Origin: Nautilus pompilius
Taxonomy: Eukaryota; Mollusca; Cephalopoda; Nautilida; Nautilidae
NCBI GenBank assembly: GCA_018389105.1
Contig: JACATO010000089.1
Coordinates: 1 to 64,000, forward strand
DNA: 64,000 nt
Direction of reading: 5' to 3'
In this document: positions 2,518 through 60,754 of the stretch, one piece after another
Numbering within the stretch: position 1 is the first letter of the stretch
Layout: the number at the start of each line of letters is the position of its first letter
Position numbers and translations under genes: made by a program
Notes under the pieces: generated by a model
What the model saw: the letters and a program-made list of their open reading frames with translations, nothing else
Databases searched by the model: none
What the model was told of the DNA's origin: nothing

Positions 2518-3508
2518 CGGGATGTAGATGTTGTACCCATTTTTGGAATAGGTGCAGCCGCAGTCTCTCTTGGCTATGCACTCCTCACCGCTCAGAACAA
2601 AGCCGGGCTTACACACGCATCCCTCTACATCCGGAAGATCGCATTCCGTTTGCAAGCTGGAGCAGGTGGATTGGCAGGCGCTTGTCTTGTATTTGTACAC
2701 CATGTTCTTCCCACACTCCATTGCTGCAGAAAGATTCTTGATTGATATAGCGAAAGAAAGTGAAAGCTAACATCTAATAACAAGTTAATTTATTGCTTTC
2801 ATTTAGAACGTCATTAATGAATATTATTGAAAACACGGTTGAGCTTATTTGTAATTCCATGGTTGTGCGCTGATGAGAAATAAAAATGCCTTTAAAATCT
2901 GCAAATATTGCAACTTATATACTTTAAATTTTTTATCAATTTGTAATAATATTGTTATTATTGAATCTATCTCTAAAATAGCTCCCATTGTAATCTTTAT
3001 TCTTTAGTTCATTTATGTCTTAGGTCTAAAGTTCAGCCAGTAAATCGTTCAGCGCATCATGAACCAAAATGTTTTAGTTAGAAAACCAAACACAAGCATA
3101 AAGCTTCTCTTTTACTTGGAGATCCTAGTGTCCAAGAACACAGTACTCACGACACTTGGCTCTGGCTCTCCAGTTCACATTTATGCCGTGGATTTCACAA
3201 GCTGCAGACAAACCTTCCACCGCCTGGCACCACACTTTAGATAAGGTCGGAGCCGTCGCGTATGCACACACATCAAAGACGCAGTCTTCGTAATAGGAAT
3301 CAAATATCTGTTTTGTCAGCTTCCCAGCGCAAGACGCGAAAAGGGATCTGAGAAGGTTGCATTTTCTTTTGCCAAGATCACAGTGGCTCTTAATGTCTTT
3401 CTTCCTCCTGCACTCACACTAAGCTAATAAGATAATAATCAATAATAATAATAATTAATAATATAATAATAATAATACTAATAATAATAAATAATAATAA
3501 TAATATAA

Positions 3509-3540
<32 letters not shown>

Positions 3541-26300: not shown

Positions 26301-26459
26301 TCTTCGTAATAGGAATCAAATATCTGTTTTGTCAGCTTCCCAGCGCAAGACGCGAAAAGGGATCTGAGAAGGTTGCATTTTCTTTTGCCAAGATCACAGT
26401 GGCTCTTAATGTCTTCTTTCTCCTCACCTGCATAATAATAATAATCAATAATAATAATC

Positions 26460-26491
<32 letters not shown>

Positions 26492-32380: not shown

Positions 32381-32820
32381 GTGTTACTGCATGAATTCAG
32401 CCATCAGATTGCTGTTAGCCATAAGCAAGGCTCCAACCGAACTCCAGTCAACCCTCGCTGCTCTCGATGGCGGATGGTGAACTTCTATAAATGTGAGATT
32501 CCTGGAGACCATAATTCCAGCAGCACAGGCCTCGGCGGCTACTCGAGAAATCCATCCTTTGGTTGTTCCACAAATAACGCGACGATCGAAGCGATTCTTC
32601 GATGAACGACTTTCCAATCCAGAGGAAGAAGCATTGAATTCCACACATTCTATCCAATTAGAGACCCAGCACTGGGGCATTTAAGGCTCGCATTGAGGCT
32701 CAATAGACTCAGTTACACGTTTGTATTCCTCCGCCCAATTAGCCGTGTGGCTTCACTATCGATGTGGAGTAGGAATTTACTGTGGCGACACCATTTCCGG
32801 TCTCGTGCAGAAAGTGCGGT

Positions 32821-36912: not shown

Positions 36913-36922
36913 TTTATTTATT
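36913..36922 (-). terminator. Candidate polyadenylation signal of right gene
   Basis: AATAAATAAA on the minus strand lies about 170 nt downstream of the stop codon. It is a canonical hexamer in two overlapping copies. The region is AT-rich, so chance occurrence is possible. Confidence 0.5.
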
Positions 36923-37651: not shown

Positions 37652-40600
37652 CTAAAGGAGGGGGGGAAATGGTAAAAGATGGAACTTCTATTAAAATCAT
37701 GGTTAAAATATACAATTTAGTGTCAGACAATTCAGATAAAGGATATTAATCTTTTTCTAAAAGAAAATAGAAATAATTTGCTTGATCTCCATTCAAGTTA
37801 CAAATAAATAACACGATGACGAGAAGTTTGGTATCAGTTCTTTGATTGAAAGCCAGCAATTATTACAGCCATCGTCATTTAGATTTCTGTTTCCTTATTA
37901 ACTCTTAGAATAGGAGTCATCCTCCACCTCGGTGAACTGGCTGTAACAATTACTAAAATAACAGTTAAAAACATCTAACGTATACCGTTAAACAGAGGAA
38001 TAAGGTAATGACTCTAAACGTTCCCCTGTCCAAGACATCATTCACAATCTCACCTTTTTTAAATGTTTACAAAAAGATTAGCTGTTTCTTTAATAAGTGA
38101 AGTCCTGTTTGGGTTTTGATCAGATAACCAGATTCTAACAAACTCTACACTACCGGGGATTAGGCGTAGTAGTCCAAGAAATTAAAGGTAAGAAATAATT
38201 TAGAATAAAAGGATGGGTAACAATATCTGGCTAAAGATTCATCTTTGCTTCGTCTAACCGATCTTTATTACAGCAATAAATAATAAATTCAATACAATTC
38301 ATTTTATCCGATGATATAAAAATAAATTAAAATATGGAACGAATTGAAAATCTACTAATTTGGTTCAAGATATTTCTACAATTTTAAAGAAAGCATTTAG
38401 AATCCAATAATCTTTTATTTTTCTATCTTTTCTGATATCCACAAGTGCACAAATATTTCGAGACTTTGAACCTTTCAGTTCATGGCATTTAAGACAAGTA
38501 ACCTCCAGCTATTGTTAATAAGTTTACCTTTATTCTTTTTACAGCTGTGCCCTTCTCTGGTGTAGTCTTTCGGGCAGACACACTGCCTTAGTCCATCCAA
38601 GATGTCGCATCCATGTTCACACTTAAGCGAATCGGTCTTCAATGTTCCACGTCCATTCACATCAGCAACACAGCTGGCTACTGACTGGCATCCAGGTAGC
38701 ACGATATTCTGGCCCAGCTGAAATATCAGGGAGAACTGTTATTAGAAACTGAGCTTAAGAATGTAGATTATTACTTTATCTTAGTAAATTAATCTAAAGA
38801 TCAAACCTGAGTGAAGAGAAGTCGAGCGAGGAAATATAGTTATCTACACGCTGCGCTCATAAGCTGACGTCCCACACACCTGATACCTTCTCACCGCTAT
38901 GAGATCTAGAATTCACCTGAGTGTTAAGTGTTTAGCGCTTCTTTAACCATTCAGTGCAGTTTAAAATATCATCTTTATTAGAAAAGGACAGGAGGAGTGA
39001 CTTCAGACTACAACGGACATAAAAGGAGAGTCAGGAGGTGAAGATAGGTACAATGATGATGTCTGAACTTACTGGGATGTAGGAGCTTCCCTTCCCATCT
39101 TTGTACACACAGCCACAATCTTTTTGGGGGATGCACTGGTCGCCGCTCAGAACGAATCCTTGTTTGCACACGCAGCCTTCTATGTTCTTCAAGCTGCACT
39201 GGGACTGCGACTGCGAGTCGGAACAGGTTGGCTGACAGCCGCTCGTCCTATACTGGTATTCCAGGTTCTTACCACATTTCAAGGCTAAAATAAATTAGCA
39301 GAACTGGATTAAATAGCATCCCTAATTCAGGGGAAGGGATAACAAAAAACAACAGATATCAGATGTCTGACTTCAACTGATTTTTCTCCAATCTGCAGTC
39401 GAAACCTCTCCTTTCTGATGTCTTAACTCTCTGGCACACAAAATTAGGCTGAAGTTGGTTAATTTTTACATTGCAGTAGAGGTCAGCCACATAATGATAA
39501 TAAAATATAAAACTTTGTTATCAGGTAAACAGGATTTGGTGTGGAAACTCTTTCCCTTAAATTATCGACTGACAGCAAAGTGAAAATGTAGCTGAACAGA
39601 ATAACATCTGCCAGTAATGAGACAAAGTGGGTAATTCATGCTGGTATATCTCCCATAAGACTTTGGTGAGGCCTGTTTTAAGAGGAATTCAGATTATTAA
39701 ATAAGCAATTTTTAGTTTAAATTGCATTTTCCAAAAAACAATTATTATATTATATCAGCTATAGGTGATGATCTCACCCAAACGCTCAGCCATACAAGAT
39801 GGGAGGCTGGATTGGAAAGATTTATCCCCCTTGTTAGATCCTCAAAGTAAAACTGCGGACGATCCAGTCGGACCTCGTTAAACGGGAAGGAAACTCAATT
39901 ATCGAGTAAAATCTGAACACATTCTTCCATTTTTTAAAAACGAAAAAAACTGCATATTTTACCCCAATTCTCTTGCGAATGATAATTCTGATTGTTTGCA
40001 TAAATGAGCCTTAACTTTTCTTAAATTAAATAATGAAAACCTGAATTAAGAAATCACTGACAAGAAACAGAAAAGACTTGTTTCCAGTCGGACTGTCTTT
40101 AAATAATTGTGTTCTATCCCTGCTTAGTAACCAACCAGTAAACGAGGATCTTAATTATTTACTTTTCCTTATTGAATAGAAACAAGCGAACTGATTGTGT
40201 ATCAATAAGGAAAATATGTACAGAATTTAAAAAGTCGTCGTAATTTCTCCTCCTCGCTGTTAATAAAGAAGGAAAGATTTGGTTGGTAAGACTGCAGTTT
40301 CTTTAACATCAGCAGGGAAGTTCAGGATTCATGAGGCTAAACCGATATCGAGGCGCACCATCCGAAATGGGCTGGCAACAGGTCCAGCGCTCAGGCAAAC
40401 TTAGACACGGATGAACAGCGATACCGCGGTCCACTGCTCACCTGAGGAAAAGTCTGCTAATCAGTGAAGACGACGCCCCCCAGCGATAATTTGTCACTGT
40501 TCGCTATTTCCAGTCCTGCTCGAGCCATTCGGGGAACGGCTCGAAGATGTACAGGACCTTAATTGAGACGTTGAGGATCCCATTGGAGCCAACGAGTCCG

Positions 40601-43600
40601 GTCAGCAAGAATTTTGAGTCAGAATTGCAGGAGGAATATTTGGAGCGGGTCAGTCATCAAACGATTCAAGAGTGCGAAAATGTCACTATGCCACCGTTGT
40701 TCGGCTGCGTGGCAAGCACGCGGAAGCAGGATGTACTGGCGACAGTTGTTACGTCAACACGAAACACCTACTGACTGCAACTGAGGGATACCGAGCGTAG
40801 CCGCTTCCGTGAGATGGCTGTCTGCCAGACCTCCACCTATCGGACCCATTCTTTCACCAAGGCGCCTCGTCCTGTTGGTTCTATGGCCAGCAGCTTGAAG
40901 AAATGTCCTCTTCAGTGAGTGGAATGCAAGGGTGTGTCCCTGTTGGAATCGCCGGTCCGAGGGAATGTGTTTTTATGTCTTGGGATATGCTAGGATGGCC
41001 GCATGTCCAGTGAATTTGGACTCATAGGCGGCGCTGTGTTCCTCTTGTAGAAAACCCTGGAGCACAGAGATGCTCGGCCTTGACGCCTGTCAAGGCAGAC
41101 ACTGAATGTGGGAAACTGTTTTTACCGTGTCATCAATACTGAAGAAGATCCTATCAATAAAATGCTTTGTTAATGAAGACAAAATGATTGTTTGTAGACG
41201 ATAAAAGATAACATCAATTTGATATCACATGATGTAGATCGATTGTTACACAGAGATCTTCTCATTCTACCAAATGCATACTCAGACCCATATCTAGATC
41301 TTCTAATTCATTGTCCTGAATTACTTGCCTGTAATCGACTCTGAGATCTTATATTACAAAAAGGGAGCCGGGAATCCTTGCTTACCACAGTTTGTTTGAG
41401 GCCTCCAGTTTATGTAGACACCTCGCGATTCACAGAACGCAGACAGACTCTCGGCAGCGGGGCACCACCAGACCGACTGCTGATTCCTATTGGCTGAATA
41501 AGCGCACACATCGTAGACACAGTCTTTGTAAAAGGCATCGAAAAATGCTTTGGTATTTTCATTAAGGCACTGAAGGAAGACTTTCTTAATAAGCCTACAT
41601 CTCAGCTGTCCCGCACGACAACTGCTCGGAATGTCTACGGTTTCTTTACACCTGTGAATAAATAATAGTGGGCACAGTAAGGAATTTTCTAAAAGGAAAC
41701 AAAAAATATATTTTTTTATAAATTGGTTCTGCTAATATTCATCAGAAAATTAGTTTAACTTAATTTTGCAATTAAAGGCAGGCAAGGATTCATTATGGAT
41801 GAATCAATGTCGCCGGGCAAATTAATTATTTATCTTTGACTTATATATTGGTTTCCATTATCAGAATCAACAAAAATAGTCGATAACTGATTCTATTAGT
41901 TTGTTTACCAATAAAATGTTTTTCTAGTATCAAACTGAGCTGACAATTGAGCCACTTTGTAATATACCGCTCTACCATTCTAAGAGAACCTAAGCAAAAA
42001 TTATCTTCCTGTCCACAATTCATATGGAAACACACACTGGCAGGCCACTTTATTAAAATATTTCAACCGTTTGAGACTCGGCCATCACCTGAACTGCGGA
42101 TGAAAACTAGGTTTATCGCATAATGTGACAAGCTATTCCTCGAGACCTGTATACGACTTGGGCTAACAGCTAAGGAGAAAGACGAAGATGGTAGAGCGTT
42201 CAAAGAGGCGAGATAATGGAGGCACACACAGCAGGTACCACAGAGGTCAAAGCAGTTTCATCGGTAGTCTTCTCTAAGAAATCGAACATTTAAGTCTATT
42301 AATAATGGAAAAAGATAGAAAAATGAATGTTTGTTGAAAAGGGGAATTATAGCCGCAGACGCGTATAGAGAAAGAGAAAACACTATAGACATATTGCTAT
42401 AAAGCATAGGACCAAATGACAGAAACTTTGACATCTCCAGACGGAAGATAGTAAAAAATAAGTCCATTGTGAAGCTTCATTTGTACACTGATAGGGACAA
42501 ATACGCCCAGGACAACCATGATCTCATCCACTGTGTCCACATTGTATGTTGATAATTTGTTAAATACATGCCAGTTATTTTTTACAGCATCTTCCATGGC
42601 CAGCCACTGAATATACATGAAATGAACTAGACAAATGCATTTGCCATCACGATCCATTGTCTACGTAGCCTCATACATTCCGTAGGATATTAAATGCCTG
42701 AATGGGAAAATATCTCACAAAAAAGCTATCAGCATCTGGAAGATTCGATGCCATTCCGTTTAATGTCTGTTATTCTGACAAACGATAGGCCAACCCGTCA
42801 ATACCTACAGTCCAGGATAACGTGGCCAGGCAGTTTATGTAAGGAGTGATACATAACCCTCACAGACAGAATGTATGCTGTTCTTCCGTGTAATAAAGTT
42901 GTCAGTACTTCAAACCCAGCACAATCTCTCCACTGTTAACTTACCGTTGATTTCTTCACTTACCGAAAATTCACCGACTGGATACTTACTGGTTAATGTT
43001 TGAGTTGTCCTTCACTCTGTAACTCTCGCCTATCAAACTAAACTTGTTTCTGTTATTGGAGACGTCTTGGCCGGTTCTCGTCTTGTAATCGTCTTTCCTA
43101 CCGTTGCAGTCTCCGCAGATTCCGGTGAGATGGCTTCCATATTCCTGAGGAACCACCACTTGAACTCGGTGATTCCCGTCAAAACGGACCTGTAGGCCCC
43201 AGAGAGTGGAAACGGTGACCCATCCGCCGGAATATGCCACCGATACCTTGCTGTTTTCAACATAAAACTTGGCAGGAAGAACTGAAGCCACTCCATTCAC
43301 CTGTTACGAAACAAAATTATTTACCTGTTTGTCTGGAAATTAACGTGACAACCTGGTGGGCTTCGGTTTGTTCTTTGAAGAGTTCTGAATTTTATAGATA
43401 CAATAAACTGTTGTAAAGGAAGCCAATCGGCTCGTTGGTTTATCACTATTTTTGTTATGCTTGCAATCAATAATTATCCAATACGTAAAAGGGGTACGTA
43501 ATTTAAATATTCTAATATTGGGACTCATCAGACTGATAAATATTTCTTGGTCTTCAATAAGGAATATAAAAGGTAATAACAATGAAGCTGAGGACCGTAC

Positions 43601-46600
43601 AGCACAAAGATCGCCCAACAATGAAGCCCACCGTATATATAATCTGCTACCATACTTTGCCCTTAGTTCCAGCAGAGAGATTTTTTATTCACTGGTTAAT
43701 AAAGAAAGTCTTAACCTAAAATAACAAATAAAGTATGGGATGTGCTTACCTGAACCTTTCCTCTCGGATTGATCCTTATTTTCAGATTTTCAAAGTTCAC
43801 ATCAACTAGACGGGTGTACGATACCCTGGTGTTTCCACCTCGGTGCTCGTTCTTAACCTCCACGTTGAAGTCGTGACCGTATCCAACAGACTGACTCAGC
43901 GTGTACTTGCAGGTTCCCATGAAATCAATTGTCTGGCCATCAAATGTGTGATAGTGAGGATCCCCTGACACCGTGCACCTGCAATTTCTTTCTGAAATAT
44001 AGAGATACGAAAGTCCAGCTTTTATCATCAGGTCGTGACTTCGTTGACTCAAAAATCTTTCAGGTTGACAAACCAAAGTCTGCGTCTTGTTGCTGTTGTG
44101 CTGGACACATGACGCCGTTCAGATTGCTCTAAGCGGTAACACCGCCTCACCGGTTATAACGGCCCTTTGTTATATTTATCACTGACAGAAAGGAGATAAA
44201 ATGTGTGTGCGTGTTTGTGTTTATTCCAAAAAGTACCTCTTTACAAAAACCAACTTAAGTAACTGGTCATATTCTCTATCTGTCAATGTAATAGAAAGTA
44301 TGGTGACATCAGAGCAGCTTTACAAATACTGTATCATCTGGCTAAAGGAACACTTCCTGTCATGGTTACTGATGTAGCTCCGCGCCTACAGATGAAGAGC
44401 TGAACTGGTAGGATTTAGTAATTTACGGTGGTAATCAATAGAGAATGAGTCAGGAAATATTAAATAAAAATCTCCTGAAACTAATGCTTTTCTGCTAACA
44501 TCAAAGAACACAGGATCTTCAATAATTTGGAACGATACTCAATAAGCTTTTGATAAATGAATACAGATAACCCATCAGTGTCGGGAGATAGTATTTGTTA
44601 AGTGCCTGCCTGAATCCTCGGCAAATACAACAGGTCCAGTCTTTACCTTCAGAAAATATTCCGCGATACCAACCAAATGCCACAAACATATAAAAAAGCT
44701 GGTAGACTTCTGTAACCAGGATATACTGACCGGAGATTCTGTCTGTTCGTGGGTGAGTTCCACGGAATAATTCAGCTTGGCACAGAAGAAATGTTGAGAC
44801 AAGAAATTACGTTGATCGGGAATTTTCACACCACCTCACTTTGTGTAGAAGATCCCGTCGTCAACACCGCCATTGTGATTAATTTAATAAGAAGTCGCAC
44901 TGGTTTAACATCTCATCCAAAACTTCAAATTAGTCAACCCTTATTTTCCACGATTGTTGAAGCTACTCACTTCCCAAGATTCCATGATTGGCCGTCTGAA
45001 TTAATGTCCACTGCGACACAAAATATGATATATCGCAATTTCTTAGTGACAGAGAGCATAATGATAAATGATTGTTGCTTGCCAACAATGAAACACGTGA
45101 CTTACTCAACACACACTTGGATCCTACCAGCACATAGCCTTTTGCACATTCGCATCCTCTCTGACCCTTCACACTGCCGCACACTTGGTTCGAGCCGCAG
45201 GAATGTTGGACGTATTTCAAAGACCCACGTCCAGATGCCAGTTTACAATGGGCCACGTACTTACAGCCCGGAAGCAGGATGTGTGTCCCCAACTGTAATA
45301 AATAGCACGAGGATAGTCAGTACTTCGCTAACTATCGACTTGGCAGGAGTCTGATGAAACAAGAGAGAAAACTATGTCGATGTCAAAAGTATCGAGGGAA
45401 AACAACATCAATAACGGTAACGAATAGCAGTGAGGTGATTCATCTCAATAGAAGATGAGGTCCAACGTGAAAATATTCAGGATCATTTATTCAAACCGAT
45501 CAATGGAGACAGGTGTGAACTCTGAAGTGGCTAAAACGATAATGGTGGTAATATGGCTACCCTAGACCACAACCTGGTTAGTCCTCCTGCAAACAAGAGA
45601 TTACTATTGCTGATTACACTAGCAACCCGTCTCCCTCTCTGTACTTCTACATTTCGAGCGTCTCCGTATTACGCTGCAGTCAGCTCTTTTAGAGGCAGAT
45701 ATTTCTTTTTATTATCTTCTGTTTTGTTTGTTTACATCGAAAGGAGCCATAATCATAGCAGAGTGGAGCACGGGGACCAGACGTACCGGGATGTAGATGT
45801 TGTACCCATTTTTGGAATAGGTGCAGCCGCAGTCTCTCTTGGCTATGCACTCCTCACCGCTCAGAACAAAGCCGGGCTTACACACGCATCCCTCTACATC
45901 CGGAAGATTGCATTCCGTTTGCAAGCTGGAGCAGGTGGATTGGCAGGCGCTTGTCTTGTATTTGTACACCATGTTCTTCCCACACTCCATTGCTGCAGAA
46001 AGATTAATTGAGTTGATACAGAGAAAGTGAAAGCTATTGCATCTAATAACAGGTTAATTTATTCCGCTCCTCTTGAACGTCATTAACGAATATTATAAAA
46101 TAGATAAAGAATACTGAACACGTGTGAGCTTATTTATAATTATGTCCTTTTTATTGCACTTGCTGAGAAATAAAATGTTTTATAATTTGTAAATATTGGA
46201 ATTTATTGAATCTATCTCTAAAATAGCTCCCATTGTAATCTTTATTCTTTTGTTCATTTATGTCTTAGGTCTAAAGTTCAGCCAGTAAATCGTTCAGCGC
46301 ATCATGAACCAAAATGTTTCAGTTAGAAAACCAAACACAAGCATAAAGCTTCTCTTTTACTTGGAGATCCTAGTGTCCAAGAACACAGTACTCACGACAC
46401 TTGGCTGTGGCTCTCCAGTTCACATTTATGCCGTGGATTTCACAAGCTGCAGACAAACCTTCCACCGCCTGGCACCACACTTTAGATAAGGTCGGAGCCG
46501 TCGCGTATGCACACACATCAAAGACGCAGTCTTCGTAATAGGAATCAAATATCTGTTTTGTCAGCTTCCCAGCGCAAGACGCGAAAAGGGATCTGAGAAG

Positions 46601-46662
46601 GTTGCATTTTCTTTTGCCAAGATCACAGTGGCTCTTAATGTCTACTTCCTCCTCACACTGCA

Positions 46663-46747
<85 letters not shown>

Positions 46748-49700
46748 TTAAAACCCCTGACGAAATCTTTAACCTATTCCAGGATTATTCCCGTTTTTCA
46801 CGAAGCTTCCAAACGTAAACGATCAGAGTTGAGTTCACTTACCGCAGCTTTCAATAAACGACATCTATTATGGGAAACACAGAACACATTGTGGTCCTCC
46901 GGGTGAATTATATAAATAATATGTTGTCTGTGGCTGACGGAAGCAGGTATTTAGGGATGACATGCGTAAGAAGAGACAACAACTGCCCAGCCGACTTGCC
47001 AATTTTACTGAAATGTTGGATGGATGCTCTTCAGCGAGTCACTCGTAAGTTTTCGCTATTCTCCGTCACCGTCTTTCATTAAGGGACGTGGGTTTATTTA
47101 GACTTGTCATCATGCGCCTGTGTCCCTGTTGCAAAGACTGAACCAATCGAATGCAGACCTATGTGCATCTTCTAGGTTCCAAATCATCTTTGATTAATTA
47201 CTAAGTAAAAACGACTCGTTAGATTTCTAATTTTTCTATAATGTTTTGAAACACAACTCACTGTTTGAAATTAGAGTCATCCCGGACTCTGTAGCTTTTC
47301 CCGATGATGGAGAACTTGTTATTCACTCGAGAAACATCTTTCCCTCCTTTCGTCTTATAGTCGTCCTTTATTCCATTGCAGTCTCCACAGAGGCCAGTCA
47401 GGTGCTTGCGGTATTCTGTCGGTACGAACACCTCCACCCGGTGGTGACCATCGAACCGGACCTTCAGACCCCAGCCAGTGGTCACAGTGACCCATCCGGA
47501 AGAACTTGCTACAGTAACTGAGAAACTGCCCACAGACTGTCTGAATGGCAGGGTTACTGCTGCACCGTTTACCTGTAATTGATAAAAAAGATAACAAAAA
47601 GTCTGACTTCAAAAATACGACGGAAATAATTTGTTCTCGTATCCATTATCTTAAAACCTAAAATATTTTCATATTACAGATCATCAATCTGGCTGACCAA
47701 TGCAGTTACTTCTCTCTATTTTGTCAACGTTATTCCTGGTAGCTGAAGAAGCAGATGATGTCGGAAACTTGGCTGTCCATTTAATTACAGGAAACTGTGC
47801 ACATACACACGCACACATCACTTAATTTATTTGTCCCCAAATTTCTTTCCACTGGATATAAAATATTTGGCACTAAATTTTATTAATGAAGCTGTGAAGA
47901 AAAAAAAACAACATAAAATGAAAACAGTACGGCCGGTAACCTTCCCGATTAAATAAAGATGTTTTTTGTTTACATGTATACAAATAAGACCTCTCTGTTG
48001 ATGGTTCTTGCTCTTATGTCATCGCCAGAAGACATATCATTCAATGAAAGTATATAGAGAACATCCAAAATTTGTTTGCTTGATTTCTTCGTTTTTCGTT
48101 TCCAAACTCTCTGTACTTTCAAAATAATCTCTTACTTTCTTCAACAGTTCCACAAGAGTCCTATCTTGGCAGAACTAGTTCCACACGTTATTGTATGAAG
48201 AAAGCAACAAAAAACAGTAATTTTAACTTTTCAAAAGCACAAAATACCTGGACACTTCTTTGTGGATTGATCCGAACCGTCAAGCCATTAAATTTGACGT
48301 CGACCAAACGGGTGTAGGATACCCTGGTGTTTCGACCCCGATGCTCGTTCTTCACCTCCACACTGAAGTATTGGCCGAATTGAGCAGACTGGCTCAATAT
48401 ATTTGCAGGTTCCCATAAAGTGGATCATTTGGCCGTCGAAGGTCTTATAATGCGGATCCCCGGAGACTTGGCATCTACAAGGTTTCTCTGCAATATACAG
48501 AAACAAAGTTCCATCATTTAGCATCAGTTCGTCACTTCAGAGACTGAAAAGACTTCAAAGCTGACAAACAATAGCCATGAATCTTGTCCCCTGTTAAGGT
48601 GGACACATAAATTGTTAAAACACTTATTACTGACAAGGGAGAGACAAGTCAGAATTACATGTGTCAGTGTCTGTGGTTATTCCTCAAAATACAGCCTTTA
48701 CAGGAACCGTATTATACCTCCATAACGGGTCATATTCTTTATCTGCGAAAGAAATTAAAGAGAACACTTCCTTCATGGTTACTGATGTAGCTCCGCGCCT
48801 ACAGATGAAGAGCTGAACTGGTAGGATTTAGTAATTTACGGTGGTAATCAATAGAGAATGAGTCAGGAAATATTAAATAAAAATCTCCTGAAACTAACGC
48901 TTTTCTGCTAACATCAAAGAACCACTGGATCTTCAATAATTTGGAACGATACTCAATAAGCTTTTGATAAATGAATACAGGTAACCCATCAGTGTCGGGA
49001 GATAGTATTTGTTAAGTGCCTGCCTGAATCCTCGGCAAATACAACAGGTCCAGTCTTTAACTTCAGAAAATATTCCGCGATACCAACCAAATGCCACAAA
49101 CATAGAAAAAAGCTGGTAGACCTCTGTAACCAGGATATACTGACCGGAGATTCTGTCTGTTCGTGGGTGAGTTCCACGGAATAATTCAGCTTGGCACAGA
49201 AGAAATGTTGAGACAAGAAATTACGTTGATCGGAAATTTTCATACCACCTCACTTTGTGTGGAAGCTCCCGTCGTCAACACCGCCATTGTGATTAATTTA
49301 ATAAGAAGTCGCACTGGTTTAACATCTCATCCAAAAGTTCAAATTAGTCAACCCTTATTTTCCACGATTGTTGAAGCTACTCACTTTCCCAAGATTCCAT
49401 GATTGGCCGTCGTCTGAATTAATGTCCACTGCGACACAAAATATGATATATCGCAATTTCTTAGTGACAGAGAGCATAATGATAAATGATTGTTGCTTGC
49501 CAACAATGAAACACGTGACTTACTCAACACACACTTGGATCCTACCAGCACATAGCCTTTTGCACATTCGCATCCTCTCTGACCCTTCACACTGCCGCAC
49601 ACTTGGTTCGAGCCGCAGGAATGTTGGACGTATTTCAAAGACCCACGTCCAGATGCCAGTTTACAATGGGCCACGTACTTACAGCCCGGAAGAAGGATGT

Positions 49701-51080
49701 GTGTCCCCAACTGTAATAAATAGCACGAGGATAGTCAGTACTTCGCTAACTATCGACTTGGCAGGAGTCTGATGAAACAAGAGAGAAAACTATGTCGATG
49801 TCAAAAGTATCGAGGGAAAAACAACATCAATAACGGTAACGAATAGCAGTGAGGTGATTCATCTCAATAGAAGATGAGGTCCAACGTGAAAATATTCAGG
49901 ATCATTTATTCAAACCGATCAATGGAGACAGGTGTGAACTCTGAAGTGGCTAAAACGATAATGGTGGTAATATGGCTACCCTAGACCACAACCTGGTTAG
50001 TCCTCCTGCAAACAAGAGATTACTATTGCTGATTACACTAGCAACCCGTCTCCCTCTCTGTACTTCTACATTTCGAGCGTCTCCGTATTACGCTGCAGTC
50101 AGCTCTTTTAGAGGCAGATATTTCTTTTTATTCTCTTGTGTTCTGTTTGTTTATATCGAAAGGAGCCATAATCATAGCAGAGTGGAGCACGGGGAGCAGA
50201 CGTACCGGGATGTAGATGTTGTACCCATTTTTGGAATAGGTGCAGCCGCAGTCTCTCTTGGCTATGCACTCCTCACCGCTCAGAACAAAGCCGGGCTTAC
50301 ACACGCATCCCTCTACATCCGGAAGATGCATTCCGTTTGCAAGCTGGAGCAGGTGGATTGGCAGGCGCTTGTCTTGTATTTGTACACCATGTTCTTCCCA
50401 CACTCCATTGCTGCAGAAAGATTAATTGAGTTGATACAGAGAAAGTGAAAGCTATTGCATCTAATAACAGGTTAATTTATTCCGCTCCTCTTGAACGTCA
50501 TTAACGAATATTATAAAATAGATAAAGAATACTGAACACGTGTGAGCTTATTTATAATTATGTCCTTTTTTATTGCACTTGCTGAGAAATAAAATGTTTT
50601 ATAATTGTAAATATTGGAATTTATTGAATCTATCTCTAAAATAGCTCCCATTGTAATCTTTATTCTTTTGTTCATTTATGTCTTAGGTCTAAAGTTCAGC
50701 CAGTAAATCGTTCAGCGCATCATGAACCAAAATGTTTCAGTTAGAAAACCAAACACAAGCATAAAGCTTCTCTTTTACTTGGAGATCCTAGTGTCCAAGA
50801 ACACAGTACTCACGACACTTGGCTCTGGCTCTCCAGTTCACATTTATGCCGTGGATTTCACAAGCTGCAGACAAACCTTCCACCGCCTGGCACCACACTT
50901 TAGATAAGGTCGGAGCCGTCGCGTATGCACACACATCAAAGACGCAGTCTTCGTAATAGGAATCAAATATCTGTTTTGTCAGCTTCCCAGCGCAAGACGC
51001 GAAAAGGGATCTGAGAAGGTTGCATTTCTTTTGCCAAGATCACAGTGGCTCTTAATGTCTACTTCCTCCTCACACCTGCA

Positions 51081-51138
<58 letters not shown>

Positions 51139-54100
51139 TTAAAACCCCTGACGAAATCTTAACCTATTCCAGGATTATTCCCGTTTTTCATGAAGCTTCC
51201 AAACGTAAACGATCAGAGTTGAGTTCACTTACCGCAGCTTTCAATAAACGACATCTATTATGGGAAACACAGAACACATTTTGGTCCTCCGGGTGAATTA
51301 TATAAATAATATGTTGTCTGTGGCTGACGGAAGCAGGTATTTAGGGATGACATGCGTAAGAAGAGACAACAACTGCCCAGCCAACTTACCAATTTTACTG
51401 AAATGTTGGATGGATGCTCTTCAGCGAGTCACTCGTAAGTTTTCGCTATTTCGTCGTCACCGTCTTTCATTAAGGGACGTGGGTTTATTTAGACTTGTCA
51501 TCATGCGCCTGTGTCCCTGTTGCAAAGACTGAACCAATCGAATGCAGACCTATGTGCATCTTCTAGGTTCCAAATCATCTTTGATTAATTACTAAGTAAA
51601 AACGACTCGTTAGATTTCTAATTTTTCTATAATGTTTTGAAACACAACTCACTGTTTGAAATTAGAGTCATCCCGGACTCTGTAGCTTTTCCCGATGATG
51701 GAGAACTTGTTATTCACTCGAGAAACATCTTTCCCTCCTTTCGTCTTATAGTCGTCCTTTATTCCATTGCAGTCTCCACAGAGGCCAGTCAGGTGCTTGC
51801 GGTATTCTGTCGGTACGAACACCTCCACCCGGTGGTGACCATCGAACCGGACCTTCAGACCCCAGCCAGTGGTCACAGTGACCCATCCGGAAGAACTTGC
51901 TACAGTAACTGAGAAACTGCCCACAGACTGTCTGAATGGCAGGGTTACTGCTGCACCGTTTACCTGTAATTGATAAAAAAGATAACAAAAAGTCTGACTT
52001 CAAAAATACGACGGAAATAATTTGTTCTCGTATCCATTATCTTAAAACCTAAAATATTTTCATATTACAGATCATCAATCTGGCTGACCAATGCAGTTAC
52101 TTCTCTCCTATTTTGTCAACGTTATTCCTGGTAGCTGAAGAAGCAGATGATGTCGGAAACTTGGCTGTCCATTTAATTACAGGAAACTGTGCACATACAC
52201 ACGCACACATCACTTAATTTATTTGTCCCCAAATTTCTTTCCACTGGATATAAAATATTTGGCACTAAATTTTATTAATGAAGCTGTGAAGAAAAAAAAA
52301 CAACATAAAATGAAAACAGTACGGCCGGTAACCTTCCCGATTAAATAAAGATGTTTTTTGTTTACATGTATACAAATAAGACCTCTCTGTTGATGGTTCT
52401 TGCTCTTATGTCATCGCCAGAAGACATATCATTCAATGAAAGTATATAGAGAACATCCAAACATTTGTTTGTTTGATTTCTTCGTTTTTCGTTTCCAAAC
52501 TCTCTGTACTTTCAAAATAATCTCTTACTTTCTTCAACAGTTCCACAAGAGTCCTATCTTGGCAGAACTAGTTCCACACGTTATTGTATGAAGAAAGCAA
52601 CAAAAAACAGTAATTTTAACTTTTCAAAAGCACAAACTACCTGGACACTTCTTTGTGGATTGATCCGAACCGTCAAGCCATTAAATTTGACGTCGACCAA
52701 ACGGGTGTAGGATACCCTGGTGTTTCGACCCCGATGCTCGTTCTTCACCTCCACACTGAAGTATTGGCCGAATTGAGCAGACTGGCTCAAGATATATTTG
52801 CAGGTTCCCATAAAGTGGATCATTTGGCCGTCGAAGGTCTTATAATGAGGATCCCCGGAGACTTGGCATCTACAAGGTTTCTCTGCAATATACAGAAACA
52901 AAGTTCCATCATTTAGCATCAGTTCGTCACTTCAGAGACTGAAAAGACTTCAAAGCTGACAAACAGTAGCCACGAATCTTGTCCCCTGTTAAGGTGGACA
53001 CATAAATTGTTAAAACACTTATTACTGACAAGGGAGAGACAAGTCAGAATTACATGTGTCAGTGTCTGTGGTTATTCCTCAAAATACAGCCTTTACAGGA
53101 ACCGTATTATACCTCCATAACGGGTCATATTCTTTATCTGCGAAAGAAATTAAAGAGAACACTTCCTTTCATGGTTACTGATGTAGCTCCGCGCCTACAG
53201 ATGAAGAGCTGAACTGGTAGGATTTAGTAATTTACGGTGGTAATCAATAGAGAATGAGTCAGGAAATATTAAATGAAAATCTCCTGAAACTAACGCTTTT
53301 CTGCTAACATCAAAGAACACAGGATCTTCAATAATTTGGAACGATACTCAATAAGCTTTTGATAAATGAATACAGGTAACCCATCAGTGTCGGGAGATAG
53401 TATTTGTTAAGTGCCTGCCTGAATCCTCGGCAAATACAACAGGTCCAGTCTTTACCTTCAGAAAATATTCCGCGATACCAACCAAATGCCACAAACATAG
53501 AAAAAAGCTGGTAGACCTCTGTAACCAGGATATACTGACCGGAGATTCTGTCTGTTCGTGGGTGAGTTCCACGGAATAATTCAGCTTGGCACAGAAGAAA
53601 TGTTGAGACAAGAAATTACGTTGAGCGGAAATTGTCATACCAGCTCACTTTGTGTGGAAGCTCCCGTCGTCAACACCGCCATTGTGATTAATTTAATAAG
53701 AAGTCGCACTGGTTTAACATCTCATCCAAAACTTCAAATTAGTCAACCCTTATTTTCCACGATTGTTGAAGCTACTCACTTTCCCAAGATTCCATGATTG
53801 GCCGTCTGAATTAATGTCCACTGCGACACAAAATATGATATATCGCAATTTCTTAGTGACAGAGAGCATAATGATAAATGATTGTTGCTTGCCAACAATG
53901 AAACACGTGACTTACTCAACACACACTTGGATCCTATCAGCACATAGCCTTTTGCACATTCGCATCCTCTCTGACCCTTCACACTGCCGCACACTTGGTT
54001 CGAGCCGCAGGAATGTTGGACGTATTTCAAAGACCCACGTCCAGATGCCAGTTTACAATGGGCCACGTACTTACAGCCCGGAAGAAGGATGTGTGTCCCC

Positions 54101-55498
54101 AACTGTAATAAATAGCACGAGGATAGTCAGTACTTCGCTAACTATCGACTTGGCAGGAGTCTGATGAAACAAGAGAGAAAACTATGTCGATGTCAAAAGT
54201 ATCGAGGGAAAACAACATCAATAACGGTAACGAATAGTGAGTGAGGTGATTCATCTCAATAGAAGATGAGGTCCAACGTGAAAATATTCAGGATCATTTA
54301 TTCAAACCGATCAATGGAGACAGGTGTGAACTCTGAAGTGGCTAAAACGATAATGGTGGTAATATGGCTACCCTAGACCACAACCTGGTTAGTCCTCCTG
54401 CAAACAAGAGATTACTATTGCTGATTACACTAGCAACCCGTCTCCCTCTCTGTACTTCTACATTTCGAGCGTCTCCGTATTACGCTGCAGTCAGCTCTTT
54501 TAGAGGCAGATATTTCTTTTTATTCTCTTCTGTTCTGTTTGTTTATATCGAAAGGAGCCATAATCATAGCAGAGTGGAGCACGGGGAGCAGACGTACCGG
54601 GATGTAGATGTTGTACCCATTTTTGGAATAGGTGCAGCCGCAGTCTCTCTTGGCTATGCACTCCTCACCGCTCAGAACAAAGCCGGGCTTACACACGCAT
54701 CCCTCTACATCCGGAAGATTGCATTCCGTTTGCAAGCTGGAGCAGGTGGATTGGCAGGCGCTTGTCTTGTATTTGTACACCATGTTCTTCCCACACTCAT
54801 TGCTGCAGAAAGATTAATTGAGTTGATACAGAGAAAGTGAAAGCTATTGCATCTAATAACAGGTTAATTTATTCCGCTCCTCTTGAACGTCATTAACGAA
54901 TATTATAAAATAGATAAAGAATACTGAACACGTGTGAGCTTATTTATAATTATGTCCTTTTTATTGCACTTGCTGAGAAATAAAATGTTTTATAATATGT
55001 AAATATTGGAATTTATTGAATCTATCTCTAAAATAGCTCCCATTGTAATCTTTATTCTTTTGTTCATTTATGTCTTAGGTCTAAAGTTCAGCCAGTAAAT
55101 CGTTCAGCGCATCATGAACCAAAATGTTTCAGTTAGAAAACCAAACACAAGCATAAAGCTTCTCTTTTACTTGGAGATCCTAGTGTCCAAGAACACAGTA
55201 CTCACGACACTTGGCTGTGGCTCTCCAGTTCACATTTATGCCGTGGATTTCACAAGCTGCAGACAAACCTTCCACCGCCTGGCACCACACTTTAGATAAG
55301 GTCGGAGCCGTCGCGTATGCACACACATCAAAGACGCAGTCTTCGTAATAGGAATCAAATATCTGTTTTGTCAGCTTCCCAGCGCAAGACGCGAAAAGGG
55401 ATCTGAGAAGGTTGCATTTTCTTTTGCCAAGATCACAGTGGCTCTTAATGTCTACTTCCTCCTCACACCTGCAAATAATAATAATAATAATAATAATA

Positions 55499-55539
<41 letters not shown>

Positions 55540-58500
55540 TTAAAACCTGACGAAATCTTTAACCTATTCCAGGATTATTCCCGTTTTTCACGAAGCTTCC
55601 AAACCTAAACGATCAGAGTTGAGTTCACTTACCACAGCTTTCAATAAACGACATCTATTATGGGAAACACAGAACACATTTTGGTCCTCCGGGTGAATTA
55701 TATAAATAATATGTTGTCTGTGGCTGACGGAAGCAGGTATTTAGGGATGACATGCGTAAGAAGAGACAACAACTGCCCAGCCGACTTGCCAATTTTACTG
55801 AAATGTTGGATGGATGCTCTTCAGCGAGTCACTCGTAAGTTTTCGCTATTCTCCGTCACCGTCTTTCATTAAGGGACGTGGGTTTATTTAGACTTGTCAC
55901 CATGCGCCTGTGTCCCTGTTGCAAAGACTGAACCAATCGAATGCAGACCTATGTGCATCTTCTACGTTCCAAATCATCTTTGATTAATTACTAAGTAAAA
56001 ACGACTCGTTAGATTTCTAATTTTTCTATAAAGTTTTGAAACACAACTCACTGTTTGAAATTAGAGTCATCCCGGACTCTGTAGCTTTCCCCGATCATGG
56101 AGAACTTGTTATTCACTCGAGAAACATCTTTCCCTCCTTTCGTCTTATAGTCGTCCTTTATTCCATTGCAGTCTCCACAGATGCCGGTCAGGTGTTTTCG
56201 GTATATTCTGGAACGAACACCTCCACCCGGTGGTGACCATCGAACCGGACCTTCAGACCCCAGCAAGTGGTAACAGTGACCCATCCGGAGGAGCTCATTA
56301 CTGTAATTTCGTTTTTGCCCACAGTCTGTCTGAAGGGCAGCTCTACACCTGCACCGTTTACCTGCAATTGAAAAAAATATAAAACATCGAAATTTGACTT
56401 CTTATTTGCCAAGGAAATATTTTGTTCTTATATTCGTTATCTGTATACCAAAAAACAATTTTATATTACAGATAATATATCTGACTGACCAAAGCAGTTA
56501 CTCCGATCACAGTTTCTTAATGTTAATCCTGGCTCCAGAACAGTCAGGTGTTTTCTGAAACTTGTCTGTCTAATTACTTATACAAAAACCTGCACACACA
56601 CACACGTCAATGAGATTTCTTTCCTGGATGTTAGAAAAATATCTGGCCCCACCTTCTATTATTGGAGCCTCTCAGACGAAATACCTTAATGGAATCCATC
56701 CAGGCCGACAGAGGACACCTCTGTTCCTGGTTCTTTCTGTTTTCTCAGGGAGACCAGATATCATTCAAGAAAATCATGAAGACGAAACCCAAACATTTGC
56801 GTGTTTACTTTATTCTTCTCTCCTTTCCAAACTTTCTGTATTTACTAAATCATCGTCCAGTTTCAGGTGAGTGTAGACCGCTTCCTCTCTCCGGAGCTTT
56901 CAAGATAATCTCCTCTCCGACAGCTAAACACCTGCAGTCGCCTATCTGTAGTTTCAGACATTCGCCAAGATTCGTTCGGACAGATATCAGAAAATATTTG
57001 TTTTTCTCTCCTCTTTACAAACAGAATGATGACGAGTGGACTAAAAGACCGACTATTGTAGGTGATGGAGACAGATGCATAAAACTTGCGGCCGTTCGTT
57101 TTCCACAGAAATTTTGCCCTCGTTATAACTAAATTTTAATGTGTGTATTTTAATGTTTTTTATGTTTTAAATTTGTTTAGAGCAGATTATTAGGTATCAT
57201 GATAATCCGCATAAAGTGTCCTTCTGAAAGAAGATCGAGCTAGATCTGCACCATCATGGCAGTAGATTACCCGAAGTCCTCTTCACTGACGCATGCGCCA
57301 TGGACCAAGACATGAAGTAGGTGAAGAGAGCGGAACTTAAATGCAGAAGTACATGAATAATAGAAGGAAACAACAAGAAATGATGATCAGAATCATTCAT
57401 TTTTCCTGCTTATATTTCGTCTCTTTGTAGATTTTCTATGTAGCTAATAATATGGATATTTAATCTTTTATGATTCAAATGAGAATAAAATGCTTACTGT
57501 GAGCTGAGCAGCTATATTTTGAGAAAATTCATTGTTACAAATGTCGTCTGCTGTAATTATTAAAAGAAAAAATTCTCCGCCATATTTAAAAAATAAATTA
57601 TTATCTTGCCAACAAAGTGACCTACTAATTTTTTAACTACACGTCGATATTTTTCGCGTAGTAGGTTGTATAACATACAACACGGAGAGTATGAGTCCAG
57701 TACAGTATTATACATCAGTCTCCGCAGAAGGATAATTTAATAACTCGTAAATTGGTGAATAAATGAGCAGAGACTTTCAGTCGTCGCCTGAGACTGCGCT
57801 TTCTGTTTTACCAAATCGAGTCTAATAAAGATCTGGAGTATTAAAGCGCAGCGTTAAGGAAGATTGACAGTAAATTAGGTTGACAATCCAATAACAAAAT
57901 TAGTTCTACACCTTTCCGATAATCCAAAGAGAGGAAACTTAAAATTATGTAATTTTGACTTATATAAAAGCACAAAATACCTGGACTCTTCTTTGTGGAT
58001 TGATTCGAACCGTCAGGCCCTTAAAGTTGACGTCGACCAAACGGGTGTAGGATACCCTGGTGTTTCGACCCCGGTGCTCGTTCTTCACCTCCACACTGAA
58101 GTACTGGCTGTATTCAACAGACTGGCTCAAAATATATTTGCAGGTTCCCATAAAGTGGATCATTTGGCCGTCGAAGGTCTTATAATGCGGATCTCCGGAG
58201 ACTTGGCACCTACAAGGCTTCTCTTGCGGGGATGGTTTCGGAACTTCTAAAACGAATGGTTAATTTACAGTAAGGAAGAGTTGCGTCCCTTAGGTAACTG
58301 GCGCATGTGCAATATTCTAGATCACACCCATGAACATTCCTTAAAATGTTTGAAAAAATATGCCACATCTAAGTCTTTTTTAAAAAAAATTTTCCTTCAT
58401 TTCTATTTTTAAAGTAAAACTTTTCGTCAAATTATTTAGATATACAGTAAATGAAGTTATGCTAAAGATATTCAGAAATAACCTAATTAACTTTCACTCT

Positions 58501-60754
58501 ACCTTTGCTTAAAGATCTAATTCCAGGAAGCGATGGCAGCTTCACTGATGCCGGCCAATATTTCCTGAGATTAAGCGTTAAAGGTTGATAGATACTTCTT
58601 TTTTTATGCGGAAAAGGAATTGTTATCTTCGTACCCGTGATGCAAGACAGGTCAGCATAGTAAACACACCTGACATTTAGAATTATACAGAATAAAAGTG
58701 AAAAATACAGTTCGTAATATGATATTTTCTCAGGTCTGGTAATTTGTCGGTGATTTAATCCACGAAGTTTCGAACAAATAATGGAAGACATGGAATAGTG
58801 GATCAGAATATTACATTTTTTATTTATGCATATATGTATATATATATATTACCTGTTAATACACACGTTCGTCCGTTAAAAGTGTAGCCACTGTTACAGC
58901 GACAGCTCCATTTTAGTCCCCAAAAACCTTTTCTCTGGCATAAATATGTCGATGTTTTACAAAACCTTTGGTTTATGTGACAGGCGACATTCCTCACTGG
59001 ATAGATAAAAACAAATTGTTTGCGTACAAAAAACGCCACAAGCACACACTCTGCTGGCCAATACCATTACCGCATCAGTTTCCTGAAGAACTAGCGATAC
59101 TTTTAAAAAATAAATAAATAATAATGGGTAATTAATTAAACTTTTTCTAATTTTGGAAATAGAGAAAGATCGTGTATCGTAAACCTTCCAACATCTCATC
59201 TCTCTTTCTCTTTATATCCCCGATTAACTTGGACAGAGATGCCTGCTTCTTTTAACATCAGTATTCGGAGGGAAAACAGCCGCTTGCGTAATTAAGGTTT
59301 GGCACCCGCTTATCACCAGGAATAGGCGAGGTACCGCAGCAGAGACTGAGCGGTGTAGCCTCGGTTTTTGTATCGATTCCAATTTGAACTCTCGTCACCG
59401 CACATCTTCGCATGGAGACAGAAAACTGAGAACGTCGACTTTTATGATTAAAAGAAATCATGACTTATAATTAGACAATTCCTTCTTCTGCTGCTTTTCA
59501 AGGTAGAAAAACGTGCATTTGTATTATTTTTCATTAAGTTCCTATCATTTAACGAACTGTGACAAATTTGAAAATACAAGACAAATTAACAAGGAATAGA
59601 TATTTTATCAGTTCATGTTTTGCTTCATTCAAGACATGAATTATTCTGCTTTTCTTTCCCAGGTTTTCCTAAAAGGGGCAGACCCTGTTTTATTGTTTCT
59701 TCCAAACTAACTCCCTCCAAATTTCTTATGTCTACGCAAGTAAGTTTTCGATAATGAGACTCGCACTGAACATTTCTGTTTGTCTCTTTTCCCAAATTTA
59801 AGATTAGGCTCCAAAAATAATAAGAATCTCTTGGTAACCAAGTAGAGTTTCATGAACATCTGTGAATAGTTGACGGACTGTCTCCTATGTTTGGTCGTCA
59901 TTGTACTACCGAGTTAAAACAGAAAGTAGAAAGGATGGAGATTAAAGGTGAGTCCACTTACAAAGCTGCATCAGTATATGCTTCTTTGGCGTAAACCATC
60001 CAGAAATTTTAGTTCCAGAATTAGGATGAGGACGATTGTGAGAATTATGGTGACCTCTCCATGAGTGGAAAAAACCTAAAATAAACAAATAAATACCATT
60101 TCTTATTACGGAAATTACAAACAAAATGTTACTTTGTGTGTATTATAGCCGGCTTTCGTTTCGCTATGATCAGCTGTCGCCGCCCTTGTCTGATGAGCCA
60201 CTTTTCCGGAAAATACGCTTTCCCTTCGTAATCGACCATCGTGATTTCTAACTAAACCGTTTATTTATAGTTATACTAATTTATTTGTTTGTTTTCTCGT
60301 TTTATCAGTGGATAGTTTACAGAAACAGTGACATTTTTGTTTTTAAAATTTAAAAAAACAGCTGCAAGCATTAGGCCGATTGTGGACGAGTCGTCTTGCA
60401 AGCTGAGAGGGATCCCAGGGGTCTCCTCGCCTTTCTAGGGCAGATTTGGCAGGGAGAGACTCTTCATCCCTTTAGCCGATTTCCTGTGCAGCCGTCGGAT
60501 CGAAGCCCGGATAACGTGGAAGGTCGGGTGGGGCGGATAGTTAAGGACCGGGCGTCGTAAAGCAGCAACAACATTGAACCTCTTTGAGGTTTGGATACAA
60601 CCTCCATGAATGGACTGAATCTGGCCTCAGCAAGGAATGGAACCAGGCTGTGAACTCGTGAAAAGATTTAAAGAAAAAGAGAGACAAAATTGGACGTTTT
60701 ACCTGATGTCGTGGCCACCCCAATGGAGAGAAGCAGAAGGATGACGGCCTTCAT
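37092..60754 (-). CDS. Right gene: secreted FCGBP-like multi-VWD protein with EGF and C-terminal vWA
   Basis: This is a multi-exon gene of 24 inferred exons read on the minus strand. The order is signal peptide, linker, EGF-like, four VWD-C8-TIL-E modules, and vWA. Splice phases agree at every inferred junction: 1 after the first three exons, then the repeating 0/2/1/0/1 pattern. If the small indels noted per module are ignored, the product would be about 1900 residues. Known proteins with repeated VWD-C8-TIL units (FCGBP, zonadhesin, gel-forming mucins) are secreted, disulfide-rich mucus or extracellular-matrix components, so that role is inferred here. The assembled sequence carries frameshifts in modules 1-3, so as written it is not one open reading frame. 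The single-copy exons and the diverged module 4 are intact. The domain reading is strong; the exact exon set is inferred without transcripts. Confidence 0.85.
38528..43991 (-). CDS. Right gene module 4: diverged, fully intact VWD-C8-TIL-E
   Basis: Exons are A 43750-43991 (242 nt), B 42990-43300 (311), C 41386-41651 (266), D 39073-39284 (212) and E 38528-38717 (190). All have consensus splice sites and the same phase pattern as the other modules. The protein differs clearly from the amplified modules ([54 protein letters not shown]) but keeps all domain hallmarks, including GDPH and CGDC. Introns are unlike the other copies. This is probably the older module, not touched by the recent amplification. 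No indel breaks any exon. It joins in phase 1 to the vWA exon. Confidence 0.88.
40300..41120. other. GC-richer segment inside an intron of right module 4
   Basis: Within the 2.1-kb C-D intron (39285-41385), a stretch of about 800 bp is clearly richer in G and C than its surroundings and contains a short inverted repeat (cgagcc ... ggctcg near 40520-40545). It resembles a transposon remnant in composition, but no motif identifies it. Confidence 0.35.
45106..48487 (-). CDS. Right gene module 3: VWD-C8-TIL-E
   Basis: Exons are A 48248-48487 (240 nt, two bases missing near 48396), B 47262-47572 (311, intact), C 46396-46657 (262), D 45787-45992 (206, intact) and E 45106-45292 (187, intact). In C one base is missing exactly at the acceptor: the sequence reads GCAG/TGTGAG where intact copies read GCAG/GTGTGAG. 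The phase therefore breaks at the C8 start. GDPHY and CGDC motifs are present. The adjoining AAT microsatellite is the longest uninterrupted one in the window. Confidence 0.78.
46664..46746. repeat. Pure AAT microsatellite next to C8 exon, right module 3
   Basis: About 28 uninterrupted AAT units within a few bases of the C8 acceptor. Confidence 0.95.
49524..52882 (-). CDS. Right gene module 2: VWD-C8-TIL-E
   Basis: Exons are A 52641-52882 (242 nt), B 51653-51963 (311), C 50814-51075 (262, one short), D 50206-50410 (205, one short) and E 49524-49710 (187). Exon A reads [16 protein letters not shown] and B reads [11 protein letters not shown], both VWD hallmarks. C contains the C8 cysteines through AYATAP and WCQAVEG. 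The missing base in C is in a T-run near 51027; that in D is near 50326. Both shift the frame. It belongs to the short-intron subtype and is nearly identical to module 3. Confidence 0.78.
51079..51138. repeat. AAT microsatellite next to C8 exon, right module 2
   Basis: About 20 uninterrupted AAT units beside the acceptor at 51075. Shorter versions of roughly 5-8 units are at 8036-8058, 12538-12557 and 20797-20814. Confidence 0.94.
53916..58246 (-). CDS. Right gene module 1: VWD-C8-TIL-E (frameshifted)
   Basis: Exons are A 57981-58246, B 56052-56361, C (C8) 55206-55468, D (TIL) 54598-54802 and E 53916-54102. Exon A is longer than in other modules: its acceptor TTCGTTTTAG lies further upstream, adding EVPKPSPQ before the conserved EKPCRC. 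It carries the [11 protein letters not shown] motif. Exon B is 310 nt instead of 311. A rearranged stretch near 56205-56215 gives a net -1 shift and an early stop before the CGDC motif. Exon D is one base short near 54797, just after its acceptor. This module has the long A-B intron (1.6 kb) and is the most diverged of the amplified set, as expected for an array edge. Whether the shifts are real or assembly errors cannot be told from the sequence. Confidence 0.75.
55472..55539. repeat. AAT microsatellite next to C8 exon, right module 1
   Basis: About 68 bp of AAT with a single interruption, beside the acceptor at 55468. Confidence 0.93.
58853..58996 (-). CDS. Exon 3 of right gene: EGF-like domain
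   Basis: The acceptor TTTTTATCTATCCAG precedes 58996 and the donor GTAATA follows 58853. The exon is 144 nt (48 residues), phase 1 to 1. Six cysteines follow the EGF pattern, with a final CRC-NSGY-x6-C block (Cys-x-Cys-x2-Gly-Tyr). A symmetric 1-1 exon is typical of shuffled EGF modules. It lacks the Asp/Asn-x-Asp calcium-binding start. It is absent from the left gene. Confidence 0.72.
59962..60075 (-). CDS. Exon 2 of right gene: basic His/Asn/Pro linker
   Basis: The acceptor TATTTTAG precedes 60075 and the donor GTAAGT follows 59962. The exon is 114 nt, phase 1 to 1, encoding 38 residues. The peptide is rich in His, Asn, Pro and Lys (for example [18 protein letters not shown]) and contains no cysteine until the splice. 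No domain is recognised. It may be a spacer or a metal- or glycan-interacting segment, which is speculative. No counterpart was found in the left gene, whose similarity to this intron ends just upstream, near 29941 (about 60151 here). Confidence 0.6.
60703..60754 (-). CDS. Exon 1 of right gene: signal peptide
   Basis: The exon starts at ATG 60754 and encodes 17 codons plus one base: [17 protein letters not shown]. This is a short basic n-region followed by a Leu/Ile/Val core and small residues, a standard secretory signal. A donor (GTAAAACG) follows at 60702, leaving phase 1. The start is supported by a TATA-like box about 40 bp upstream and by an identical exon in the left gene. Confidence 0.88.

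Follow-up and report, generated by a model that had tools for sequence, protein, structure and literature searches.

We examined the first 64,000 bases of contig JACATO010000089.1 (C89, 392,500 bp) of the Nautilus pompilius assembly GCA_018389105.1 (728 Mb in 2558 contigs), the one assembly used in this study; this stretch is referred to below as the window, and its position 1 is base 1 of the contig. As indicated by a check of the coding strand, the window contains two tandem genes on the minus strand, with ten copies of a VWD-C8-TIL-E unit (D assembly), designated L1 to L6 in the left gene and R1 to R4 in the right gene. The plus strand was considered as coding and rejected; open stretches of the correct length, bounded by AG and GT, occur there as well, and many of them are antisense to the repeats. 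The repeat copies match at about 97% over up to 5.5 kb, so the pattern is not due to chance.

Layout of the two genes

Each gene begins with a signal-peptide exon of 52 nucleotides (nt), the same in both, which ends in phase 1 with GT; the name "signal peptide" is our own reading of its 18 residues. D-assembly blocks follow, and the right gene closes with a terminal D assembly and then a VWA exon, the latter absent from an earlier reading of this DNA (the original prediction). The standard module consists of five exons, E1 to E5, of 242/311/263/206/187 nt; the predicted phases (1/0/2/1/0/1) and total of 1209 nt (3 x 403) follow from these lengths. The module array is of the symmetrical 1-1 class, with phase-1 introns at both bounds and a length divisible by three, and phase 1 also suits the VWA exon. 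If all exons had their standard lengths, the coding sequence of the right gene would amount to 52 + 3 x 1209 + 1221 + 560 = 5460 nt, or 1819 residues. The limits of the predicted span were also borne out: 60754 is the ATG of a signal-peptide exon and 2518 the end of the last E4.

Ten copies with shared exon lengths had been proposed, six on the left and four on the right. The number of copies and their distribution held, but the uniformity did not: 47 of the 50 expected exons are present, the stated length is exact in 33 of these, and only three copies (L2, L4 and L5) have all five lengths exact. R4, which had been counted as a further module copy, shares the phases and the lengths 242/311, but it is a divergent terminal assembly with E3-E5 of 266/212/190 nt, and its protein (about two residues off at exon ends) is about 57% identical to that of L5. 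The 14 non-matching exons comprise these three and 11 exons of standard copies (-5 to +1 nt); altered or missing exons were found in six of the nine standard copies.

The module count differs between the genes, as had been predicted, with at least six in the left gene, incomplete ones included, and three standard modules plus the terminal assembly in the right gene. The contig end is reached at L6 and the 3ʹ end of the left gene does not lie within the window; because the window starts at the contig end, six left modules are not a final count. The coordinates are collected in Table 1.

Table 1. Features of the window, in the order of transcription, and the contig end
Feature	Position	Strand	Remarks
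Right gene, signal-peptide exon	60703..60754	-	ATG at 60754; ends in phase 1 with GT
Right gene, module R1	53916..58222	-	E1-E5; E2 -1 nt, E4 -1 nt
Right gene, module R2	49524..52882	-	E3 -1 nt, E4 -1 nt
Right gene, module R3	45106..48487	-	E1 -2 nt, E3 -1 nt; nearest relative R2
Right gene, terminal divergent D assembly R4	38528..43991	-	242/311/266/212/190; module phases kept
Right gene, terminal exon	37092..37651	-	VWA domain and stop codon; PF00092, 3.4e-41
Left gene, signal-peptide exon	30482..30533	-
Left gene, module L1	24557..29193	-	E3 -2 nt, E4 -1 nt; GDPY replaces GDPH
Left gene, module L2	18904..23525	-	five exact exon lengths
Left gene, module L3	16452..17871	-	E1, E4 (-3 nt) and E5 only; without E2 and E3
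Left gene, module L4	10944..15279	-	five exact exon lengths
Left gene, module L5	6439..9821	-	five exact exon lengths
Left gene, module L6	2518..5336	-	E1, E2 (+1), E3 (disturbed acceptor), E4; no E5 before contig end
Contig end	1..1737	.	homologous to DNA upstream of the C756 and C1866 sister genes, not to the left gene 3ʹ end

Several repeats were observed beside these features. A variable-length (ATT)n tract stands directly before the E3 splice acceptor in eight of the nine E3 exons present (all but R4; positions 3432-3583, 26432-26495, 46663-46751, 51081-51142 and 55474-55543), and its length could affect splicing. A 40-bp minisatellite was found upstream of three gene starts on the five contigs searched, with about 12 copies at window positions 32820-33295, about 8 at C89:64519-64834 and about 4 at C756:45676-45838. 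At the contig end, a degenerate reading frame on the minus strand (257-602), similar to a transposase of the mariner type, is repeated upstream of the sister genes.

Domains and sister genes

The VWD, C8 and TIL domains of the module scored above the Pfam cut-offs. The E domain, the last element of the predicted content, was called by Pfam neither in the module nor in R4, but a D assembly of FCGBP aligned over module residues 4-388 of 402, the E region included, in a sequence search of the PDB, the sole source through which relatives in other animals were compared. The nearest solved relatives of the module are the D assemblies of FCGBP, with six matching stretches in 8rde and an E value of 1.1e-228 for the whole sequence. 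The GDPH motif is present in nine of the ten first exons, L1 being the exception. For the VWA domain, collagen VI alpha 3 was the first match in the PDB search (five stretches) and proximal thread matrix protein 1 the second (4cn8, two stretches, 1.5e-35). The domain contains DRSGS and TDG, which are MIDAS-like. In NCBIfam, the module gave no match and the VWA domain only matches below the cut-off. More distant VWA-domain matches are clustered on contigs C600, C904 and C1077.

The original prediction of a two-gene array is correct for the window, but sister genes are present on C756 and C1866. A genome search with the E2 protein gave 40 matches, of which 28 (56-100% identity) fall on five contigs (C89 with 11, C1884, C2357 and C756 with five each, and C1866 with two) and 12 (32-47%) on seven others. 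On the five contigs of the close family, where gene starts were also examined, we found six signal-peptide exons, on C89, C756 and C1866, which are 96.6-100% identical (in one case, the match covers 54 of 59 bases), as well as six VWA ends of the close family (one on C89, four on C756 and one on C1866).

The number of standard modules among the paralogues ranges from 0 to at least 6, incomplete ones included. The gene at C756:33606 has none; it consists of a signal peptide, one terminal-type D assembly, for which 242/311/266/212/190 is among the open options, and VWA, and those of its exons that were tested are open (the VWA acceptor was not among the separate checks). The gene at C756:10770 has one standard module and a terminal assembly; for its E1 and terminal E1, no exon open in the expected phase was found, and a frame shift seems to affect its terminal E5. 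The gene at C756:46512 contains no more than pieces of a standard module. C756 begins inside a VWA exon without the 5ʹ part of that exon, and it is possible that this start joins the absent 3ʹ end of the left gene.

C1866 and C756 are 98.2% identical over 7.5 kb, and tandem copies inside C756 are 98.6% identical over 6.5 kb. Since the identity between the two contigs is no higher than that between tandem copies, alleles and paralogues are indistinguishable here; the upstream parts differ as well, and we did not accept C1866 as a second haplotype of C756. Two flank probes, C756:65000-68000 and C89:97000-99000, each gave one full-length place and short repeat matches (among the best 40 of 89 and the best 40 of 119 candidates, respectively).

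Exchange between modules

Seven copies (L1, L2, L4, L5, R1, R2 and R3) were compared with each other; L3 and L6, which are incomplete, and the divergent R4 were left out, and E3 of L1 was set 2 nt short in the comparison of exon and intron divergence. Exons were less divergent than introns in all 21 pairs; gap openings numbered 0-3.3 per kb in exons versus 3.7-18.7 in introns, and the ratio of nonsynonymous to synonymous divergence (dN/dS) was 0.14-0.88.

The introns of the same seven copies fall into classes that conflict from one segment to another. Intron 1 is long in L1, L2, L4 and R1 (R1 being 14% from the other three) and short in L5, R2 and R3; intron 3 forms one group of similar sequences in L1, L4 and L5 and another in R1-R3, and L2 belongs to neither; for intron 4, L1 and L2 have a long form and the remaining copies a short one. 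Across all seven copies, in both genes, intron 2 is nearly uniform, with differences of 0.6-1.9%, although the classes of introns 1 and 3 are about 13-33% apart. Between L4 and L5, the alignable part of intron 1 diverges by 27% and intron 4 by 0.8%; between L1 and L4, the values are 1.8% and 10.9%. Over 259 informative sites, a PHI-type statistic of 0.103 was obtained; the mean under permutation was 0.278, and a value as low was reached in none of 2000 permutations. Because the copies are mosaics of intron classes, their sequences indicate that modules have been exchanged between copies. Unequal crossing-over and gene conversion both fit these mosaics, and the data do not separate them.

Frame-neutral gain and loss of modules by unequal crossing-over had been predicted from the exon pattern. 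The 1-1 block is indeed frame-neutral, and exchange between modules is supported, but two rearrangements are not frame-neutral: L3, in which E1 ends in phase 0 and E4 begins in phase 1, and a joint on C1866 near 1791, where E1 is without its first 189 nt. In-register exchange preserves the frame wherever it is placed, and out-of-register events such as L3 do not. The 1-1 symmetry is also not independent evidence of variability, since any tandem coding repeat that is read through must have equal end phases.

Interpretation and comparison with known systems

The explanation that we prefer, with a probability of roughly 0.77, is a tandem gene cluster encoding a secreted multidomain extracellular protein, in the order signal peptide - (VWD-C8-TIL-E)n - terminal D assembly - VWA, which would form an elongated disulfide-rich rod and in which the number of D assemblies was changed by unequal crossing-over or conversion. 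This number would have grown and shrunk through unequal crossing-over together with conversion between modules of the same and of neighbouring genes; whole-module gains and losses would keep the frame, because the module is bounded by phase-1 introns and measures 3 x 403 nt. The D assemblies and the C-terminal VWA domain suggest a secreted protein of mucus, matrix or adhesive, most likely a rod of which the number of modules would set the length. Its VWD domains probably self-cleave at GDPH, with the pieces still held together by disulfides, and its VWA domain probably binds collagen or another matrix partner.

Several observations weigh against this explanation. Neither gene reads through as assembled: R1, R2, R3 and L1 carry two length changes each, L3 lacks two exons and L6 is disturbed; for this reason, the copies in the window may have decayed or the contig may be wrong. 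The gene order on C1866 departs from the plan: there, a standard module passes directly into the terminal part at intron 4/E5, terminal E1-E4 are missing, and VWA comes next. No C8 domain was called by Pfam in R4, where VWD and TIL were called. The first cysteine of the vertebrate CGLC site is T or S here (GLCGDCNG), and dN/dS values of up to 0.88 show only weak constraint between some copies.

There is a real chance, which we put somewhat below even, that the arrays of standard modules are partly misassembled, and that errors in the long reads, along with false joins between repeats of nearly identical sequence, produced wrong module counts, the gap in L3 and the small deletions. Of the 11 standard exons that deviate, ten fall short of the expected length (E2 and E4 of R1, E3 and E4 of R2, E1 and E3 of R3, E3 and E4 of L1, E4 of L3 and E3 of L6), several of them by one base of a short run, and a single exon, E2 of L6, is longer; the value of -5 for E3 of L6 depends on a chosen non-AG acceptor, there being no clean acceptor at that placement. 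These length lesions may be consensus errors. An alignment-based tally, blind to changes beside splice sites, found indels in 7 of 42 exons on C89, and the module-only contigs were worse, with 11 of 16 on C1884 and 6 of 12 on C2357. Of the five contigs with family members, four (C756, C1866, C1884 and C2357) have an end that lies within a gene. Elsewhere in the genome, all 14 matches to the hemocyanin beta-sandwich family PF14830 (which we take to be molluscan), located on two contigs, are free of internal stops, a rough control in which indels were not directly counted. On the other hand, three modules are exact, and intron 1 differs by 32% between R1 and R2 and by 27% between L4 and L5; neighbours that distinct are unlikely to be false duplicates.

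Alternatively, the genes in the window could be decaying pseudogenes, with sister genes such as C756:33606 as the working members. The frame-shifting lengths in R1-R3, L1 and L6, the loss of E2 and E3 from L3 and the open exons of the C756:33606 gene are in line with such decay. However, the modules L2, L4 and L5 are intact, as are R4 and the signal-peptide and VWA exons; gaps and substitutions are rarer in exons than in introns, and the lesions look like consensus errors. We consider this explanation unlikely. That the copies are similar mainly through very recent serial duplication, with little exchange, is very improbable and already disfavoured: R2 and R3 do differ at only 3 of 1205 exon sites and 18 of 2147 intron sites, but the intron classes and the PHI-type statistic give conflicting histories for segments of the same copies.

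The proposed cluster shares features with several known proteins. Like von Willebrand factor (VWF), the protein would be a single secreted chain in which D assemblies are combined with an A domain. The order in VWF is D1-D2-D'-D3-A1-A3-D4-C-CK, whereas the reading frame here stops after one VWA domain. Proximal thread matrix protein 1, presumably a mussel byssus protein, resembles the VWA domain, behind collagen VI alpha 3, but has VWA domains without D assemblies.

A closer precedent is zebrafish zonadhesin (zan), described as having symmetrical 17-exon VWD blocks of about 5 kb each, flanked by phase-1 introns, with two versus three blocks in two sequences, a difference for which the authors leave open an assembly collapse or a population variant (PMC1325057). 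Phase-1 VWD blocks duplicated in frame and an unsettled block count are common to both systems. The zan blocks are 85-87% identical and accompanied by MAM domains (PMC1325057), whereas here the blocks have five exons, a C-terminal VWA domain is present and there are several tandem sister genes. The exon plan here goes from the signal peptide to E1, without a MAM search across the locus.

In human FCGBP, tandem VWD-C8-TIL-E assemblies include three nearly identical three-domain repeats, and GDPH is found in 11 of 13 VWD domains, compared with 9 of 10 here; cleavage between Asp and Pro with disulfide retention was reported, and in D10, where GDPH is cut at this position, replacement of His by Asn inhibited cleavage (PMC10880436). 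FCGBP consists of 12 D assemblies and, at the end, a lone VWD (PMC10880436), in contrast to the order signal peptide-D(n)-VWA with the stop codon in the VWA exon at 37092-37651. The IgG binding of FCGBP is not transferable to the Nautilus protein. Among limpet adhesive-mucus proteins, P-vulgata_1 to _4 contain vWFD and P-vulgata_3 also C8 and TIL, and zonadhesin and IgGFc-binding protein are among the BLAST hits of P-vulgata_1, _2 and _4; EGF, LDLrA or lectin domains are also listed for these proteins, but VWA, which is present here, is not listed (PMC7333891).

Two further observations concern other parts of the genome. The hemocyanin matches mentioned above lie in two genes on contigs C557 and C1362, with seven beta-sandwich matches each and about 88% identity over 1.6 kb; one hemocyanin unit gave 14 PDB matches at E up to 1e-20, all named hemocyanin. 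These genes would be paralogues or very deep alleles, so they provide no haplotype yardstick. The hemocyanin matches are in keeping with a molluscan source. An annelid origin, to which some COX1 features had pointed, was also considered: the erythrocruorin-linker family of annelids gave no match, but the controls of that search matched nowhere either, so absence of the family is not shown. At least 117 COX1-family matches occur genome-wide, e.g. on C112, C327 and C1801 (among the best 96 of 180 candidates), many of them fragmentary with TGA codons, and they suggest abundant nuclear mitochondrial copies.

No paper on a D(n)-VWA gene family was found in the open-access literature searched. The cluster is a clear but not unprecedented case of protein growth by repetition of gene segments, as in-frame duplication of phase-1 VWD blocks has already been published for zebrafish zonadhesin. 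The cluster also lends itself well to tests of long-read assembly: its close family occupies five contigs, and in four of these a gene is cut by a contig end. A further possibility, doubtful at present, is that recombination repeatedly gives rise to genes and alleles in which the signal peptide and the VWA anchor are constant but the number of self-cleaving D assemblies between them varies, so that rod length would differ between individuals. If this were true, rod lengths would tune the mechanics of mucus, byssus or adhesive, and the genes would represent a modular biomaterial family that is polymorphic in length. The paralogues with 0, 1, 3 and at least 6 standard modules form a natural series, with which one could examine how a secreted protein is affected by its number of D assemblies.

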